Source: Clostridiales bacterium (lineage in GTDB: Bacteria > Bacillota > Clostridia > Christensenellales > QALW01). Taken from it: a DNA stretch of 32,558 nucleotides. Location of the stretch: the NCBI GenBank assembly GCA_015069575.1, contig SVIH01000015.1:1-32558 (forward strand), given 5' to 3'. This document shows, piece after piece, positions 28,864-32,558 of the stretch. Within the stretch, counting starts at the first letter, position 1. The number at the start of each line of letters is the position of its first letter. The notes under the pieces were generated by a model. The model searched no databases and was not told the DNA's origin. It worked only from the letters and a program-made list of their open reading frames with translations. Made by a program: the position numbers and the translations under genes.

Positions 28864-29844
28864 ATGGATATTGTTAGGCGTCCCGAAACTATGCAAAGAA
28901 TTACAACAAATGAACTTGCGCAAGTCTTTATTGATGAACAGGTTGCTGAAATCAGGGAACAGGTAAAAGATAAAAAGGTTTTACTTGCACTTTCAGGTGG
29001 TGTTGATTCATCAGTTGTTGCCGCACTTTTAATTAAAGCAATTGGAAAGCAGCTTGTGTGTGTTCATGTAAATCACGGCCTTATGCGTAAAGGTGAAAGC
29101 GAACAGGTTATTGAGGTTTTTAGAAATCAGCTTGATGCTAACCTTATCTATATTGATGCTACTGATCGTTTTCTTGATTTGTTAAGAGATGTTGCTGAAC
29201 CTGAAAAGAAGCGCAAAATTATCGGTAACGAATTTATTAAAGTTTTTGATGAAGAAGCAGGTAAACTTCAGGGTATTTCCTTCTTAGCACAGGGTACAAT
29301 TTATCCTGATATATTAGAAAGTGATGGTGTTAAAGCACATCATAACGTTGGCGGTCTTCCTGAAGATATGCAGATGGAACTTGTAGAACCTATTAAACTT
29401 CTTTATAAGGATGAGGTTCGTGTTGTTGGTAAAGCACTTGGCTTGCCTGCACAAATGGTTGACCGTCAGCCATTCCCAGGTCCAGGCTTAGGTGTTCGTT
29501 GCCTTGGTGCAATTACAAGGGACAGGCTTCATGCTTTAAGGGAAGCAGATGCAATTTTAAGGGAAGAATTTGATAAATGTGGTCTTGCATCAAAAGTTTG
29601 GCAGTATTTTATTGCAGTTCCTGATTTTAAAAGCGTTGGCGTAAAGGATAATAAACGCTATGAAGGTTGGCCCGCAATTATCCGCGCAGTCAATACTGTT
29701 GACGCTATGACCGCTACTATTGAAGAAATTCCTTACGAAGTTCTTCATACAATTACAAATCGTATTACAACTGAGGTTGAAGGCATTAACCGTGTACTTT
29801 TAGACCTTACACCTAAACCCATTGGCACTATCGAGTGGGAATAA
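28864..29844 (+). CDS. guaA: GMP synthase, synthetase subunit only (no glutaminase domain)
   Basis: A 326-residue protein that aminates XMP to GMP with ATP. The ATP-pyrophosphatase loop LALSGGVDSS lies at 41-50 with SGGVDS at 44-49. Then come VNHGLMRKGE, GLPEDMQMELVEPIKLLYKDEVR, RQPFPGPGLGVR and the dimerisation end LLDLTPKPIGTIEWE. Typical bacterial GuaA has about 510 residues because a class I glutamine amidotransferase precedes this part. Here AGGGGG and the ATG at 28864 come right before the synthetase domain, and the promoter is just upstream, so nothing is cut off. A separate glutaminase subunit elsewhere, or use of free ammonia, is implied. Its last codons are the start of the 127-bp repeat. 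Confidence 0.92.
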   Translation: MDIVRRPETMQRITTNELAQVFIDEQVAEIREQVKDKKVLLALSGGVDSSVVAALLIKAIGKQLVCVHVNHGLMRKGESEQVIEVFRNQLDANLIYIDATDRFLDLLRDVAEPEKKRKIIGNEFIKVFDEEAGKLQGISFLAQGTIYPDILESDGVKAHHNVGGLPEDMQMELVEPIKLLYKDEVRVVGKALGLPAQMVDRQPFPGPGLGVRCLGAITRDRLHALREADAILREEFDKCGLASKVWQYFIAVPDFKSVGVKDNKRYEGWPAIIRAVNTVDAMTATIEEIPYEVLHTITNRITTEVEGINRVLLDLTPKPIGTIEWE

Positions 29845-29958
29845 TTAATGCAAGTCGAAAAAGCCTTATAAATCAAGGTTTTTCGGCATTCAAAGCGAGT
29901 TTTTGATACCGTTTTGATACCAAATAGAATAATAAACAACGGCAGGGGTGTAAATCTC
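29832..29958. repeat. 127-bp direct repeat, left copy (guaA 3' end; probable attachment site)
   Basis: Perfectly identical to 32432-32558. It begins inside guaA at the last four sense codons and includes the stop. It then contains a hairpin (CGAAAAA-CCTT/AAGG-TTTTTCG with one bulge, 29856-29885) and two direct TTTTGATACC repeats (29901-29910, 29912-29921). Identity stops one base upstream. The right copy is cut by the window end, so 127 bp is a minimum. The 3' end of guaA is a known integration target of genomic islands. Confidence 0.75.
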
Positions 29959-30008
29959 CTGCCGTTGCTGTCTTTTAAGGGTGTCTCTTCGGCGGCACCC
30001 ATTTTTTT
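29938..30008 (+). terminator. Double hairpin downstream of guaA
   Basis: AACGGCAGG (29938-29946) pairs with CCTGCCGTT (29958-29966). A second hairpin, GGGTGTC/GGCACCC (29979-29985 with 29994-30000), is followed by a T run at 30002-30008. The second is a classic terminator. The first begins inside the direct repeat and is cut off in the right copy. Apart from these and the repeat, 29845-30123 holds no gene. Confidence 0.75.
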
Positions 30009-30038: not shown

Positions 30039-30047
30039 TGTTATAAT
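30039..30047 (+). promoter_or_regulatory. Extended -10 promoter of the sigma/anti-sigma pair
   Basis: TGTTATAAT at 30039-30047 is a perfect extended -10 element without a good -35 at 16-18 bp. It lies about 75 bp before the sigma factor start, which has an AAAGGAGA ribosome binding site. Confidence 0.45.
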
Positions 30048-30123
30048 TATTTTGAGAAAAGTGTAAGATTTCGATTTTTTAAACGAATATAATATTAAAT
30101 TAATTCAAAGGAGAGATGAGACT

Positions 30124-30687
30124 ATGGAGGACAGTAAGTTACTGAGATTGCTACATAAAGACCCGAGCGCTGGAATGGAACAGTTAATGAATCAGTATGC
30201 AGGTCTTGTTTATGCTGTTGTCAAAGGTAAATATACGGGGTCTTGCTATGTTTCAACCGATTTTGAAGATTGTGTGGCAGATGTATTCAGCGAGTTTTAC
30301 ACGGAGCTTGCGAAGTATGACCCGAAGATCTCAAGCATCAAATCATATCTGTGCGTATTGGCTCGTTACCACGCGATCGATGTAGCACGAAAACGTGTGA
30401 GACAACGAGGTGATTTTTCGCTTGACGATGAGGATAGTTTGCTTCAGATTGCTGATAATTTTACCATAGAGGGAGATATTGCAGAGGATGAGATTCGCCA
30501 CGAGGTGTTATCAGCGGTTAAGGAGCTTGGTGAACCCGACTCAAGCATCATCATACGGAAGTATTATTTTGGTGAGTCCTCAAAGGATATCGCGGATGCG
30601 CTGAAGCTGACAGTATCCAATGTGGATACGCGCACACACAGAGCTTTAAACAAATTGCGAAAATTGTTTGGAGGTAAAGAGGTATGA
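30124..30687 (+). CDS. Sigma-70 family RNA polymerase sigma factor (ECF-like)
   Basis: A 187-residue protein with only regions 2 and 4, as in ECF factors. Region 2 covers about 15-95 (DFEDCVADVFSEFYTELAKYD, then IKSYLCVLARYHAIDVARKR for -10 recognition). Region 4 covers about 125-183, with the helix-turn-helix around YYFGESSKDIADALKLTVSNVDTRTHRAL. It directs RNA polymerase to an unknown gene set. The next gene starts within its stop (ATGA overlap of 4 bp) and encodes a membrane protein, the usual sigma/anti-sigma arrangement. It lies in the presumed guaA-integrated cassette. Confidence 0.87.
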   Translation: MEDSKLLRLLHKDPSAGMEQLMNQYAGLVYAVVKGKYTGSCYVSTDFEDCVADVFSEFYTELAKYDPKISSIKSYLCVLARYHAIDVARKRVRQRGDFSLDDEDSLLQIADNFTIEGDIAEDEIRHEVLSAVKELGEPDSSIIIRKYYFGESSKDIADALKLTVSNVDTRTHRALNKLRKLFGGKEV

Positions 30688-32156
30688 AAAAGAAATTGAA
30701 TGAAATATTTGATGAAGCAAAGCCGCAGGAACTTGATCAGTTTTCAGATGAGTTGAACGCACCCAAACTCCCCGATGATGTGCTTGCTTCAGTTAAAGAT
30801 AAGTTTTATGTCAAAACAAAATTGAAGAAAGAGAAGAAAACCACCCAAAACATATGGATTCGATTTGGGGCAATCGCAGCCTGCTTGTTGCTGATAGTCA
30901 GTGCTGTCATTGTTGTGCCTATGGTGCGAGAGGATTATACCCCAATCATTTTTGATGCAACTGTGTCCCCTGAACAATTAAACGGTAATAGTTTGGAATT
31001 TATAGTAGGAACTTCTACTTCTATTGAGGGCGGGGCTGCTGCAGAACCACCCAGATTTGAATTTAGCGCAGGATTTGCTGTAAAAGCCAGGGTTGTGAAG
31101 AATTATCCCGATAAATACTATAAACTTGATATCAGCTCGGCATATCGACCTATGGCATATCGTTTGATACAGATGGAAACCCTTGAAGTTATATGCGGTA
31201 ACAATGTGCCGAAATATTTTCTTTATTTAATTCCGGATTACCTCTATGTCGATATGTCCATATATGATTCGCTCATAATATCTATGTCTCAGCTTGGGGT
31301 AGAAAATTATGTTTTGCGAAACGGGACACAAAACAAGATGGAGTCTTTTGAATTGCTTATATTTTCGGATGAATGGGATAATCCCGAACGCGGTAACATT
31401 ATTGCTTTTAGCGATGGCATATTTGATGAAAGCTTGTGGCAAAATAAAATGTGGAATCACGGTTATCATTATCTTGATCATCCGGAACACGCCGATCTTG
31501 TTGTGGCGCGTGGTGACTTCGAGAGCACCGTTATATCTGCCATCAATCAGCAATTTGAGGAATGGTACGATGGCAATTTTAAGGCCCCCTCTGTAAAAAC
31601 ACTCAATTTTACTACCCAAGCAGCAAGGGATGCCATCGAATATGTAAAGCCCTTTGTCAACGGCGTTTTTTCTCAGTTGTATAGAAACGGAGCGCTCATT
31701 TTCAGACGCTATATCAACGGTTGCCAAACTGAAGAAACGATAAGTATCGATTTTCTTACTGAAGAAGTAACTTATTCCGAGGTTCGTTATACTAAGGAAG
31801 ATATGGAACAGATGGAGAATATCTCCGCGCATCTTTCTAAAAAAGTAGCCGAATATGCGGAGCAATTGCCGACTCCACCGCACACCAGACCCAAAGGGAA
31901 AGAGCTTGTGTGCCTTAATTTGTATGCATGGTATGCTAAAGTGGATGGTAAATTATACGGCATTATCAAAACTGCTTGGCGATACAGAAATAAAGATGAT
32001 TGGTTCATTCAATACTATGATGAAGCTCACGTTCTGTACGATATGTCAGCAGGAACGGCAACCGATATTTCAAGAGATGACTTGGTGGCTATCGTAGGAA
32101 CTCGCAATGTGTATATGGATAAATACGGAAAAGGAATCGAAATGCCCATGTATTAA
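30684..32156 (+). CDS. Single-pass membrane protein, probable anti-sigma factor with large extracytoplasmic domain
   Basis: A 490-residue protein. A charged cytoplasmic N terminus of about 57 residues (LNEIFDEAKPQELDQFSDEL) is followed by one membrane helix at about 58-81 (FGAIAACLLLIVSAVIVVP). About 400 residues outside follow; I do not recognise a family there. No zinc-binding HxxxCxxC anti-sigma motif is present. The role as anti-sigma or sensor is inferred from 4-bp overlap with the sigma gene and from topology. The outer part is rich in aromatic and acidic residues (WYDGNF, YAWYAKVDGKLYG) and may sense a ligand or envelope stress. Confidence 0.6.
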   Translation: MKKKLNEIFDEAKPQELDQFSDELNAPKLPDDVLASVKDKFYVKTKLKKEKKTTQNIWIRFGAIAACLLLIVSAVIVVPMVREDYTPIIFDATVSPEQLNGNSLEFIVGTSTSIEGGAAAEPPRFEFSAGFAVKARVVKNYPDKYYKLDISSAYRPMAYRLIQMETLEVICGNNVPKYFLYLIPDYLYVDMSIYDSLIISMSQLGVENYVLRNGTQNKMESFELLIFSDEWDNPERGNIIAFSDGIFDESLWQNKMWNHGYHYLDHPEHADLVVARGDFESTVISAINQQFEEWYDGNFKAPSVKTLNFTTQAARDAIEYVKPFVNGVFSQLYRNGALIFRRYINGCQTEETISIDFLTEEVTYSEVRYTKEDMEQMENISAHLSKKVAEYAEQLPTPPHTRPKGKELVCLNLYAWYAKVDGKLYGIIKTAWRYRNKDDWFIQYYDEAHVLYDMSAGTATDISRDDLVAIVGTRNVYMDKYGKGIEMPMY

Positions 32157-32261: not shown

Positions 32262-32380
32262 TTATGGTATAATAAATTACATGGAAAAGTAGTGCTTTTC
32301 GGGTGGCATTGGGGATACCAATTTAATACCGTTTTTTCGTAGACGCCATAGAAGAAGCGAAAATCTTGGTCAAATGCCAC
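32262..32380 (+). other. Structured region with nested inverted repeats near the cassette right end
   Basis: An extended -10 (TGGTATAAT, 32265-32273) is followed by a small hairpin (GAAAAG 32284-32289 with CTTTTC 32295-32300). Then comes a nested set of arms: GTGGCATT (32303-32310) with AATGCCAC (32373-32380), ACCAA (32317-32321) with TTGGT (32366-32370), and TTTTCG (32334-32339) with CGAAAA (32358-32363). The order is consistent with one long imperfect hairpin. It could be a small RNA, a single-stranded recombination or transfer site, or recombinase arm sites. No convincing protein gene lies in 32157-32558. Confidence 0.4.
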
Positions 32381-32431
32381 TAAAAAACGCGTAAAAAGAC
32401 CTGAATTCACTCGATATAATACTAATTTAAG

Positions 32432-32558
32432 CGAGTGGGAATAATTAATGCAAGTCGAAAAAGCCTTATAAATCAAGGTTTTTCGGCATTCAAAGCGAGT
32501 TTTTGATACCGTTTTGATACCAAATAGAATAATAAACAACGGCAGGGGTGTAAATCTC
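32432..32558. repeat. 127-bp direct repeat, right copy (cut by window end)
   Basis: Identical to 29832-29958 over its full visible length and carries the terminal guaA codons, stop, hairpin and paired TTTTGATACC motifs without the rest of guaA. Just upstream, CACTCG (32408-32413) is inverted relative to the repeat's first bases CGAGTG (32432-32437), as recombinase core sites often are. The window ends inside the repeat. Confidence 0.75.

Follow-up and report, generated by a model that had tools for sequence, protein, structure and literature searches.

Tandem sigma/anti-sigma candidate cassettes lacking an integrase, with apparently exchangeable sensors, at the guaA 3′ end of a Clostridiales bacterium

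Results

An att-bounded sigma factor gene pair follows guaA

The DNA analysed here, referred to as the window, is the entire 32,558-nucleotide contig C7 (GenBank SVIH01000015.1) of a 1.59 Mb draft genome, G000, from a Clostridiales bacterium. Near its right-hand end, guaA is followed by two genes whose reading frames overlap by 4 bp (ATGA), the first encoding a sigma factor and the second a single-pass membrane protein. This pair lies between copies of an att core in a unit designated cassette 1, and a second unit, cassette 2, starts at the end of the window. The features are listed below.

28864–29844, + strand: guaA, short form, 326 aa (open reading frame and homology to GuaA)
29832–29958, + strand: left-end direct repeat, first copy, 100% identical to 32432–32558
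29833–29844, + strand: att core GAGTGGGAATAA (guaA codons EWE*), bounding cassette 1 on the left; the core occurs in exact form at 29833, 32433 and C16:2369
29905–29921, + strand: putative left arm-type sites, a GATACC direct repeat pair of period 11, about 60 bp past the guaA stop
29937–29967, + strand: terminator-like hairpin separating guaA from the genes of the cassette
30039–30047, + strand: TGTTATAAT, which may be the extended −10 element of a housekeeping promoter driving both genes (sequence reading only)
30061–30088, + strand: predicted ECF autoregulatory promoter GTGTAAGATTT-N12-YGWAT, kept upstream of type-A sigma genes
30124–30687, + strand: ECF-type sigma factor, 187 aa, sigma type A (Pfam, NCBIfam)
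30684–32156, + strand: 490-aa single-pass membrane protein, anti-sigma candidate, whole gene (open reading frame; partner kept in 16/16 relatives)
30684–30854, + strand: cytoplasmic part, residues 1–57, proposed sigma-binding domain of class II-like length (co-varies with sigma type)
30847–30922, + strand: 76-nt stretch over the transmembrane segment, proposed recombination hinge, identical to the C16 paralogue
30855–30926, + strand: transmembrane segment, residues about 58–81, with a conserved IAAC motif (single hydrophobic segment)
30936–32153, + strand: ectodomain, about 406 aa, proposed exchangeable sensor of an unrecognised family (comparison; weak fold hints)
32314–32330, + strand: putative right arm-type sites of cassette 1, a GATACC/AATACC pair of period 11 (copies at 32314 and 32325)
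32343–32448, + strand: right-end segment common to cassettes 1 and 2 (98%); contains a short open reading frame that ends in VDAIEEAKILVKCH*
32432–32558, + strand: left-end repeat, second copy, start of cassette 2, which continues on C16:1–2384
32433–32444, + strand: att core separating cassette 1 from cassette 2, an exact copy of GAGTGGGAATAA

The guaA product is the ATP-pyrophosphatase part of GuaA without the glutamine amidotransferase domain, and this short form is the sole GuaA match in G000. GuaA homologues were retrieved from 152 of 181 relatives, several of which hold both the short and the full-length protein, sometimes side by side (G163, G171 and G126). The 3′ end of the gene is the integration site, with the repeat opening on the last guaA codons, GAG TGG GAA TAA. 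The 127-bp repeat at 29832 and 32432 is exact, where 0 such repeats are expected by chance. Its length is a lower bound as the contig stops there, and the copy on contig C16 extends to the equivalent of about position 30070; the exact 127 bp of the terminal copy looks like an assembly k-mer limit. At the opposite end of the window, two partial tRNA-like stretches (1–60, at the contig start, and 241–285) resemble a tRNA-Arg half, and ARAGORN called neither as a gene.

Contig C16 of the same genome begins inside the left-end repeat, with C16:1–45 corresponding to repeat positions 83–127. It carries, in order, a second sigma factor gene, a second membrane partner, the shared right end, a further GAGTGGGAATAA and the host genes PadR-DUF1700-DUF4097, which are named from sequence reading. 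In the sister species G001, of the same genus, PadR-DUF1700-DUF4097 are also found downstream of guaA, with other cassettes in between. Because C16 starts in the repeat and the same host genes follow guaA in G001, C7 appears to adjoin C16; overlapping sequence and synteny are the basis of this join, and the draft genome may hold further copies in between. The guaA 3′ end carries at least two tandem cassettes of 2.6 and about 2.5 kb, in the order guaA, sigma1-anti1, att, sigma2-anti2, att, host. The initial annotation had described the pair as carried alone; a second sigma/anti-sigma pair adjoins it, from C7 to C16. The two sigma factors are 74% identical and the two membrane partners 37%.

In G001, the insert after guaA starts with a 433-aa cargo that has att copies of its own on either side and continues with an ABC-transporter/LytTR block, so the guaA site varies between sister species. 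The cassette is also foreign in composition, at 39.6% GC (43.6% in the sigma gene) versus 34.6 ± 2.3% for the host. When the right-end DNA (32341–32450) was searched in 396 genomes of the order, it matched in the source genome only. The open frame ending VDAIEEAKILVKCH* in this shared right end (32343–32390) is perhaps the tail of a lost gene. The att cores, the arm repeats described below and the varying cassettes in the sister species all agree with the earlier proposal of a mobile sigma factor inserted at the guaA 3′ end.

The cassettes have arm-type repeats and lack an integrase

To place the GATACC repeats in context, DNA 3′ of guaA was taken from 60 regions of relatives, giving 51 testable sites. 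A 7–10-bp direct repeat pair with a period of exactly 11, located 56–80 bp past the guaA stop, was present at 10 of these 51 sites, compared with a mean of 0.07 and a maximum of 1 in 200 shuffles, 0 at other offsets and at most 1 at other periods. A tyrosine integrase is encoded at four of the ten sites (L026, L051, L057 and the cut L027), for which reason integrase arm-type sites are the best interpretation of the period-11 pair. The left copies of cassette 1 are at 29905 and 29916, and loci L016 and L023 likewise have their own repeat motif at both cassette ends. Two IMG/VR contigs contain the exact left-end 19-mer, in each case immediately ahead of a tyrosine recombinase gene. At the right end of cassette 2 the pair is down to a single GATACC, and given this lone copy, cassette 2 may be partly decayed.

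No integrase was found among the reading frames of either cassette, or elsewhere in the window or C16, and a genome-wide search returned three integrases with none at guaA. Cis-mobilizable elements (CIMEs) are moved in cis by an ICE or IME with which they have accreted. They have attL and attR with no integration or transfer genes, and they accrete in tandem at the 3′ end of housekeeping genes (PMC5704250). In structure, the guaA cassettes fit this definition because they are att-bounded, with three att cores, have arm repeats, with pairs at both ends of cassette 1, and lack integration and transfer genes, as judged from the reading frames of both cassettes and the absence of an integrase at the site. 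Other classes of element were considered and rejected. An autonomous ICE or IME would encode its own integrase, and in an integron gene cassette array we would expect attC sites and a linked IntI integrase, rather than guaA 3′-end cores with arm repeats. A phage- or plasmid-borne origin is not supported, since relatives of the anti-sigma candidate or the sigma factor were absent from IMG/VR, as were relatives of the anti-sigma candidate from phage and plasmid records. The apparent att copies at L060 and L063 were set aside as chance matches, the copy in L060 lying inside an ABC-transporter gene whose sequence L063 shares.

The initial annotation had also raised the possibility of a remnant of a larger island. 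Under this explanation, one or two larger guaA islands (ICE/IME) lost their integration and transfer genes and decayed into the present modules, which are now immobile, and the sigma pairs have become ordinary chromosomal regulators. We regard this as quite possible, as the cassettes carry no integrase or transfer gene, CIMEs have been described as decay products (PMC5704250), the VDAIEEAKILVKCH* frame could derive from a lost gene and cassette 2 is short of one right arm repeat. It would not account for everything, however. The module ends have stayed 98–100% identical while their cargo diverged to 74% and 37% at the amino acid level, both reading frames are open and their promoters conserved, and cassette 1 retains its arm-type sites on either side. 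Furthermore, small cassettes of other kinds, likewise integrase-less, occupy this site in the sister species, and the sensor itself recurs at L016 within a guaA array separate from this one.

Several relatives hold other cargo 3′ of guaA. The first guaA cassette at L016 (320–1285) encodes a 321-aa protein with a signal peptide, His/Cys-rich repeats, a Ser/Thr/Glu-rich stretch and a C-terminal membrane anchor, for which PADLOC gave only a weak match, to PD-T4-6 (6.5e-4). Two further tandem att-bounded cassettes without an integrase are present at L066 (G135), one with a 339-aa protein of no assigned function and one with an apparent MFS-type transporter. At L046 (G014), the 12.9 kb from guaA to a further att-like core contains an apparent type I restriction-modification system and a large unassigned protein of 1164 aa. 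At L073 (G161), the guaA end and its 3′ context recur 2.56 kb downstream, by duplication or insertion, and between the two copies lie genes for a further sigma factor and its short membrane partner.

The sigma factor is ECF-type with a predicted autoregulatory promoter

ECF sigma factors contain Sigma70 regions 2 and 4 only, at about 190 aa. The 187-aa window protein has this architecture, with matches to PF04542 (Sigma70_r2) and PF08281 (Sigma70_r4_2) above Pfam cut-offs and to TIGR02937 (sigma70-ECF) at 5e-25, and its nearest solved sequence is the ECF factor SigE (2q1z). It is an ECF-type sigma factor, and together with the reading frames these matches agree with the earlier description of a two-region sigma factor overlapping its partner gene by 4 bp.

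Upstream of the gene, we compared the sequence with the ECF promoter type having a TGTAA-type −35, a CGWAT-type −10 and a 16–17 bp spacer. The predicted promoter GTGTAAGATTT-N12-YGWAT is present upstream of 4/4 type-A sigma genes, and TATAA within the TGTTATAAT region is kept in the same number of type-A loci (4/4). Exact matches to GTGTAAGATTT-N12-YGWAT in G000 are limited to the two cassette promoters, two-mismatch matches occur at control level, and the genome-wide search for a non-self target found none in G000. Because exact matches are confined to the two cassettes, the cassettes' own promoters are so far the only predicted targets (autoregulation). The earlier suggestion that the sigma factor could reprogram host envelope genes finds no counterpart among the exact promoter matches, which are the cassettes' own.

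The membrane partner has an ectodomain of an unrecognised family

Residues 1–57 of the partner are Lys-rich and contain no His or Cys, and the protein therefore has no zinc anti-sigma motif; assignment to the class I zinc anti-sigma factors (ZAS), which have HxxxCxxC, was rejected on this basis. In the transmembrane segment, the AAC motif is found in 17 of 25 partners, as compared to a shuffle mean of 0.63 and maximum of 4. IAAC fits a lipobox, a reading we set aside since the hydrophobic stretch comes after the motif and not before it. Searches of the partner against Pfam, NCBIfam, PHROGs, PADLOC and PDB sequences gave no significant match, and for a defence function PADLOC had no match to either the sigma factor or the partner. 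Proteins of the RsgI family have a characteristic N-terminal domain and a periplasmic domain that cleaves itself. An RsgI domain was not matched in the window protein by Pfam or NCBIfam, or in L112 or L019b by Pfam, and a divergent form is possible.

We modeled the ectodomain (pLDDT 64, pTM 0.64) and its C-terminal domain (pLDDT 72, pTM 0.68), each from six sequences and with moderate confidence. The models suggest two beta-strand-rich domains, and in Foldseek neither had a match with E below 0.001. The structures nearest to the N-terminal half are TIMP/NTR OB folds, at Z 5–6, below the trusted level. For the C-terminal half, YycI (Z 4.2) is below the trusted level, and the M4 propeptides 3nqy (Z 5.8, 142 aligned, rmsd 4.8) and 3nqz (Z 5.2, 139 aligned, rmsd 5.2) are both below the reliability level; Pfam did not match an M4-propeptide/PepSY-like domain in the ectodomain. 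The database searches uphold the initial description of a single-pass protein with about 400 residues outside, no family and no zinc motif, and structure prediction with remote homology gave no clear match of the outer domain to an unrelated function.

The cytoplasmic part tracks the sigma factor and the ectodomain does not

The ectodomain has few relatives, which occur in 4 of 391 genomes of the class (source genome counted) and at loci L016–L019. The family is joined to four kinds of cytoplasmic regulator. Among the sigma factors, type A is found in the window, C16 and L018a, type B in L016, L018b and L019a, and a third type in L111. At L112 (5437–7527), an XRE-HTH/sigma-region-4 fusion is paired with an ectodomain of the same family, possibly a different output for the same sensor.

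Comparison of the window with L016 gave 73% identity in the ectodomain versus 21% in the sigma factor and 24% in the cytoplasmic part. Between the window and L019b, the sigma factors are 89% and the cytoplasmic parts 85% identical, and the ectodomains are unrelated. Across nine pairs, sigma similarity correlated with similarity of the cytoplasmic part (r=0.93, p=5e-5) and not with that of the ectodomain (r=−0.13, p=0.75). After 16 more distant pairs were added, for a total of 25, the values were 0.67 (p=1e-4) for the cytoplasmic part and 0.16 (p=0.016), small but not zero, for the ectodomain. Because the cytoplasmic part tracks the sigma factor and the ectodomain does not, sigma binding probably resides in residues 1–57, and the ectodomain probably acts as a sensor that can be exchanged.

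As a general criterion, an anti-sigma gene adjoins the sigma gene and encodes a cytoplasmic domain, and both are found here, with the 4-bp overlap and a single-pass partner directly downstream in 16/16 retrieved sigma relatives, the ectodomains of which are quite different. Judging from these sequence comparisons, the partner very probably holds the sigma factor inactive, in line with the earlier anti-sigma candidate reading. It has no recognised anti-sigma domain, as would be the case if it were a sigma-dependent surface enzyme or adhesin that is merely co-transcribed. We consider such an effector role highly improbable, since an N-terminus that follows sigma type beside an ectodomain that does not is what sigma binding predicts, and since the gene overlap and the retention of a single-pass partner despite differing ectodomains also argue against it.

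L016 opens within a guaA 3′ end, and its sequence contains more att copies, at 1447 and 4375. The same sensor is present there in a second, independent guaA array with another sigma type, type B. At L018 (7453–11630) and L019 (2000–6373), type-A and type-B sigma/anti-sigma pairs are adjacent in tandem, and no guaA att was detected at either. The two L018 ectodomains are 61% identical and the sigma factors 25%.

The nucleotide comparison of cassettes 1 and 2 gave 98–100% identity at the ends, 62–82% over most of the sigma gene, 61–78% in the cytoplasmic part preceding the hinge, and 36–54% in the ectodomain with one block at 65%. Between L019a and L019b, the transmembrane DNA is 94% identical, the cytoplasmic parts are 37% identical and the ectodomains share nothing. 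Because the transmembrane DNA stays near-identical between otherwise diverged partners, the comparison of these few genomes suggests that sensors are exchanged by recombination through this stretch. A single insertion that was doubled by homologous recombination between the repeats and then diverged would also account for the shared gene order, the identical ends and the 74% identity of the sigma factors. We find a simple duplication of this kind unlikely, because the cassette 2 ectodomain is nearer to that of L112 (50%, with the XRE-sigma4 partner) than to that of cassette 1 (32%), and the cassette 1 ectodomain is closest to L016 (73%), so ectodomain replacement or separate acquisition would be needed in addition.

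Discussion

We have computed the array, its att and arm repeats, the sigma family, the coupling of sigma factor and cytoplasmic part, the exchange of sensors and the conservation of the promoter. Overall, we think it likely that the guaA 3′ end carries tandem, integrase-less, att-bounded sigma/anti-sigma cassettes with swappable sensors and proteolytic release of the sigma factor. Sigma binding, proteolysis and sensing we infer as follows. Each cassette would be a self-contained signalling unit, in which the anti-sigma candidate would hold the sigma factor through its short cytoplasmic part and detect an external signal with its large ectodomain. Once the signal arrives, a site-1 protease would probably cut first, followed by the host RseP-type protease near IAAC in the membrane; the genome encodes an RseP-type M50 protease. 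Degradation of the freed N-terminal fragment would release the sigma factor, which would then drive its own operon through GTGTAAGATTT-N12-YGWAT, plus further targets. In RsgI of C. thermocellum, RseP cuts the membrane helix and the exposed XAA end is recognised by ClpXP (PMC12203970), and we propose by analogy that a similar RseP/ClpXP route operates here. Sensor domains would be traded among anti-sigma genes by recombination at the transmembrane-coding stretch. The cassettes themselves would come and go by the action of a tyrosine integrase at the guaA 3′ end, the enzyme being either supplied in trans or lost once they had integrated (the CIME state); that they are mobile at present is our hypothesis.

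Each ingredient of this system has precedent. SigI/RsgI of Clostridium thermocellum consist of a sigma factor and a single-pass anti-sigma factor, with several paralogous pairs per genome (PMC6056542, PMC12203970). Like these, the pairs described here have a short cytoplasmic N-terminus and, outside the cell, a divergent and exchangeable part, which we propose to be the sigma-binding domain and the sensor, respectively; the one transmembrane helix between them carries an XAA motif. Unlike SigI/RsgI, these pairs have a sigma factor that profiles place in the ECF type and a partner without a detected RsgI domain; the ectodomain is of another, unrecognised kind, and the pairs are in att-bounded cassettes at guaA. 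Class II anti-sigma domains are short, with two helices wrapped round the sigma factor, and the length of residues 1–57 agrees with this. The class II anti-sigma domains of ECF sigma factors, such as CnrY of CnrH/CnrY (PMC7406223), share with the partner here a short cytoplasmic domain (29–57 aa) beside one transmembrane helix and no zinc motif, although the ectodomain here is much larger and the comparison is one of length and coupling.

The DUF4179-type membrane partners of Firmicutes ECF sigma factors are similarly encoded downstream and are single-pass with a short N-terminus. The window ectodomain has no match to DUF4179, and the relative L094 has a sub-threshold match.

As with CIMEs, the elements are site-specific, att-bounded and in tandem at the 3′ end of a housekeeping gene, but they are very small, with one sigma/anti-sigma operon each and the same type of cargo repeated in tandem. 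The islands ATE-1, GIsul2 and the Brucella IncP island (PMC5704250 table, PMC9376610) also use the guaA 3′ end as a tyrosine integrase attachment site; however, these encode their own integrase and carry other cargo, such as resistance genes in GIsul2. Sigma/anti-sigma pairs with swapped sensors (RsgI) and tandem integrase-less att-bounded elements (CIMEs) are therefore already known, and to that extent the system is less undescribed than the initial annotation had proposed. In the literature searched, mostly outside subscription journals, we found no description of sigma/anti-sigma pairs in CIME-like cassettes combined with this ectodomain. What is new is the combination of ingredients, the unrecognised ectodomain and the sensor exchange.

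More tentatively, and with considerable doubt, we speculate that the guaA 3′ end of Clostridia could collect and exchange, in tandem, single-operon cassettes that lack an integrase. Sigma pairs would be one class of these, with sensors re-assorted via the transmembrane hinge, giving a mobile combinatorial sensor repertoire without a recombinase of its own. Transcription switches are usually viewed as host-owned and slow to change. The sensor-plus-switch units here look like movable, stackable cargo, with the sensor apparently exchanged between unrelated switches. They provide sigma and anti-sigma parts in naturally matched and mismatched combinations for probing specificity, an orphan ectodomain family open to structure solving, and small integrase-less elements whose movement is testable.
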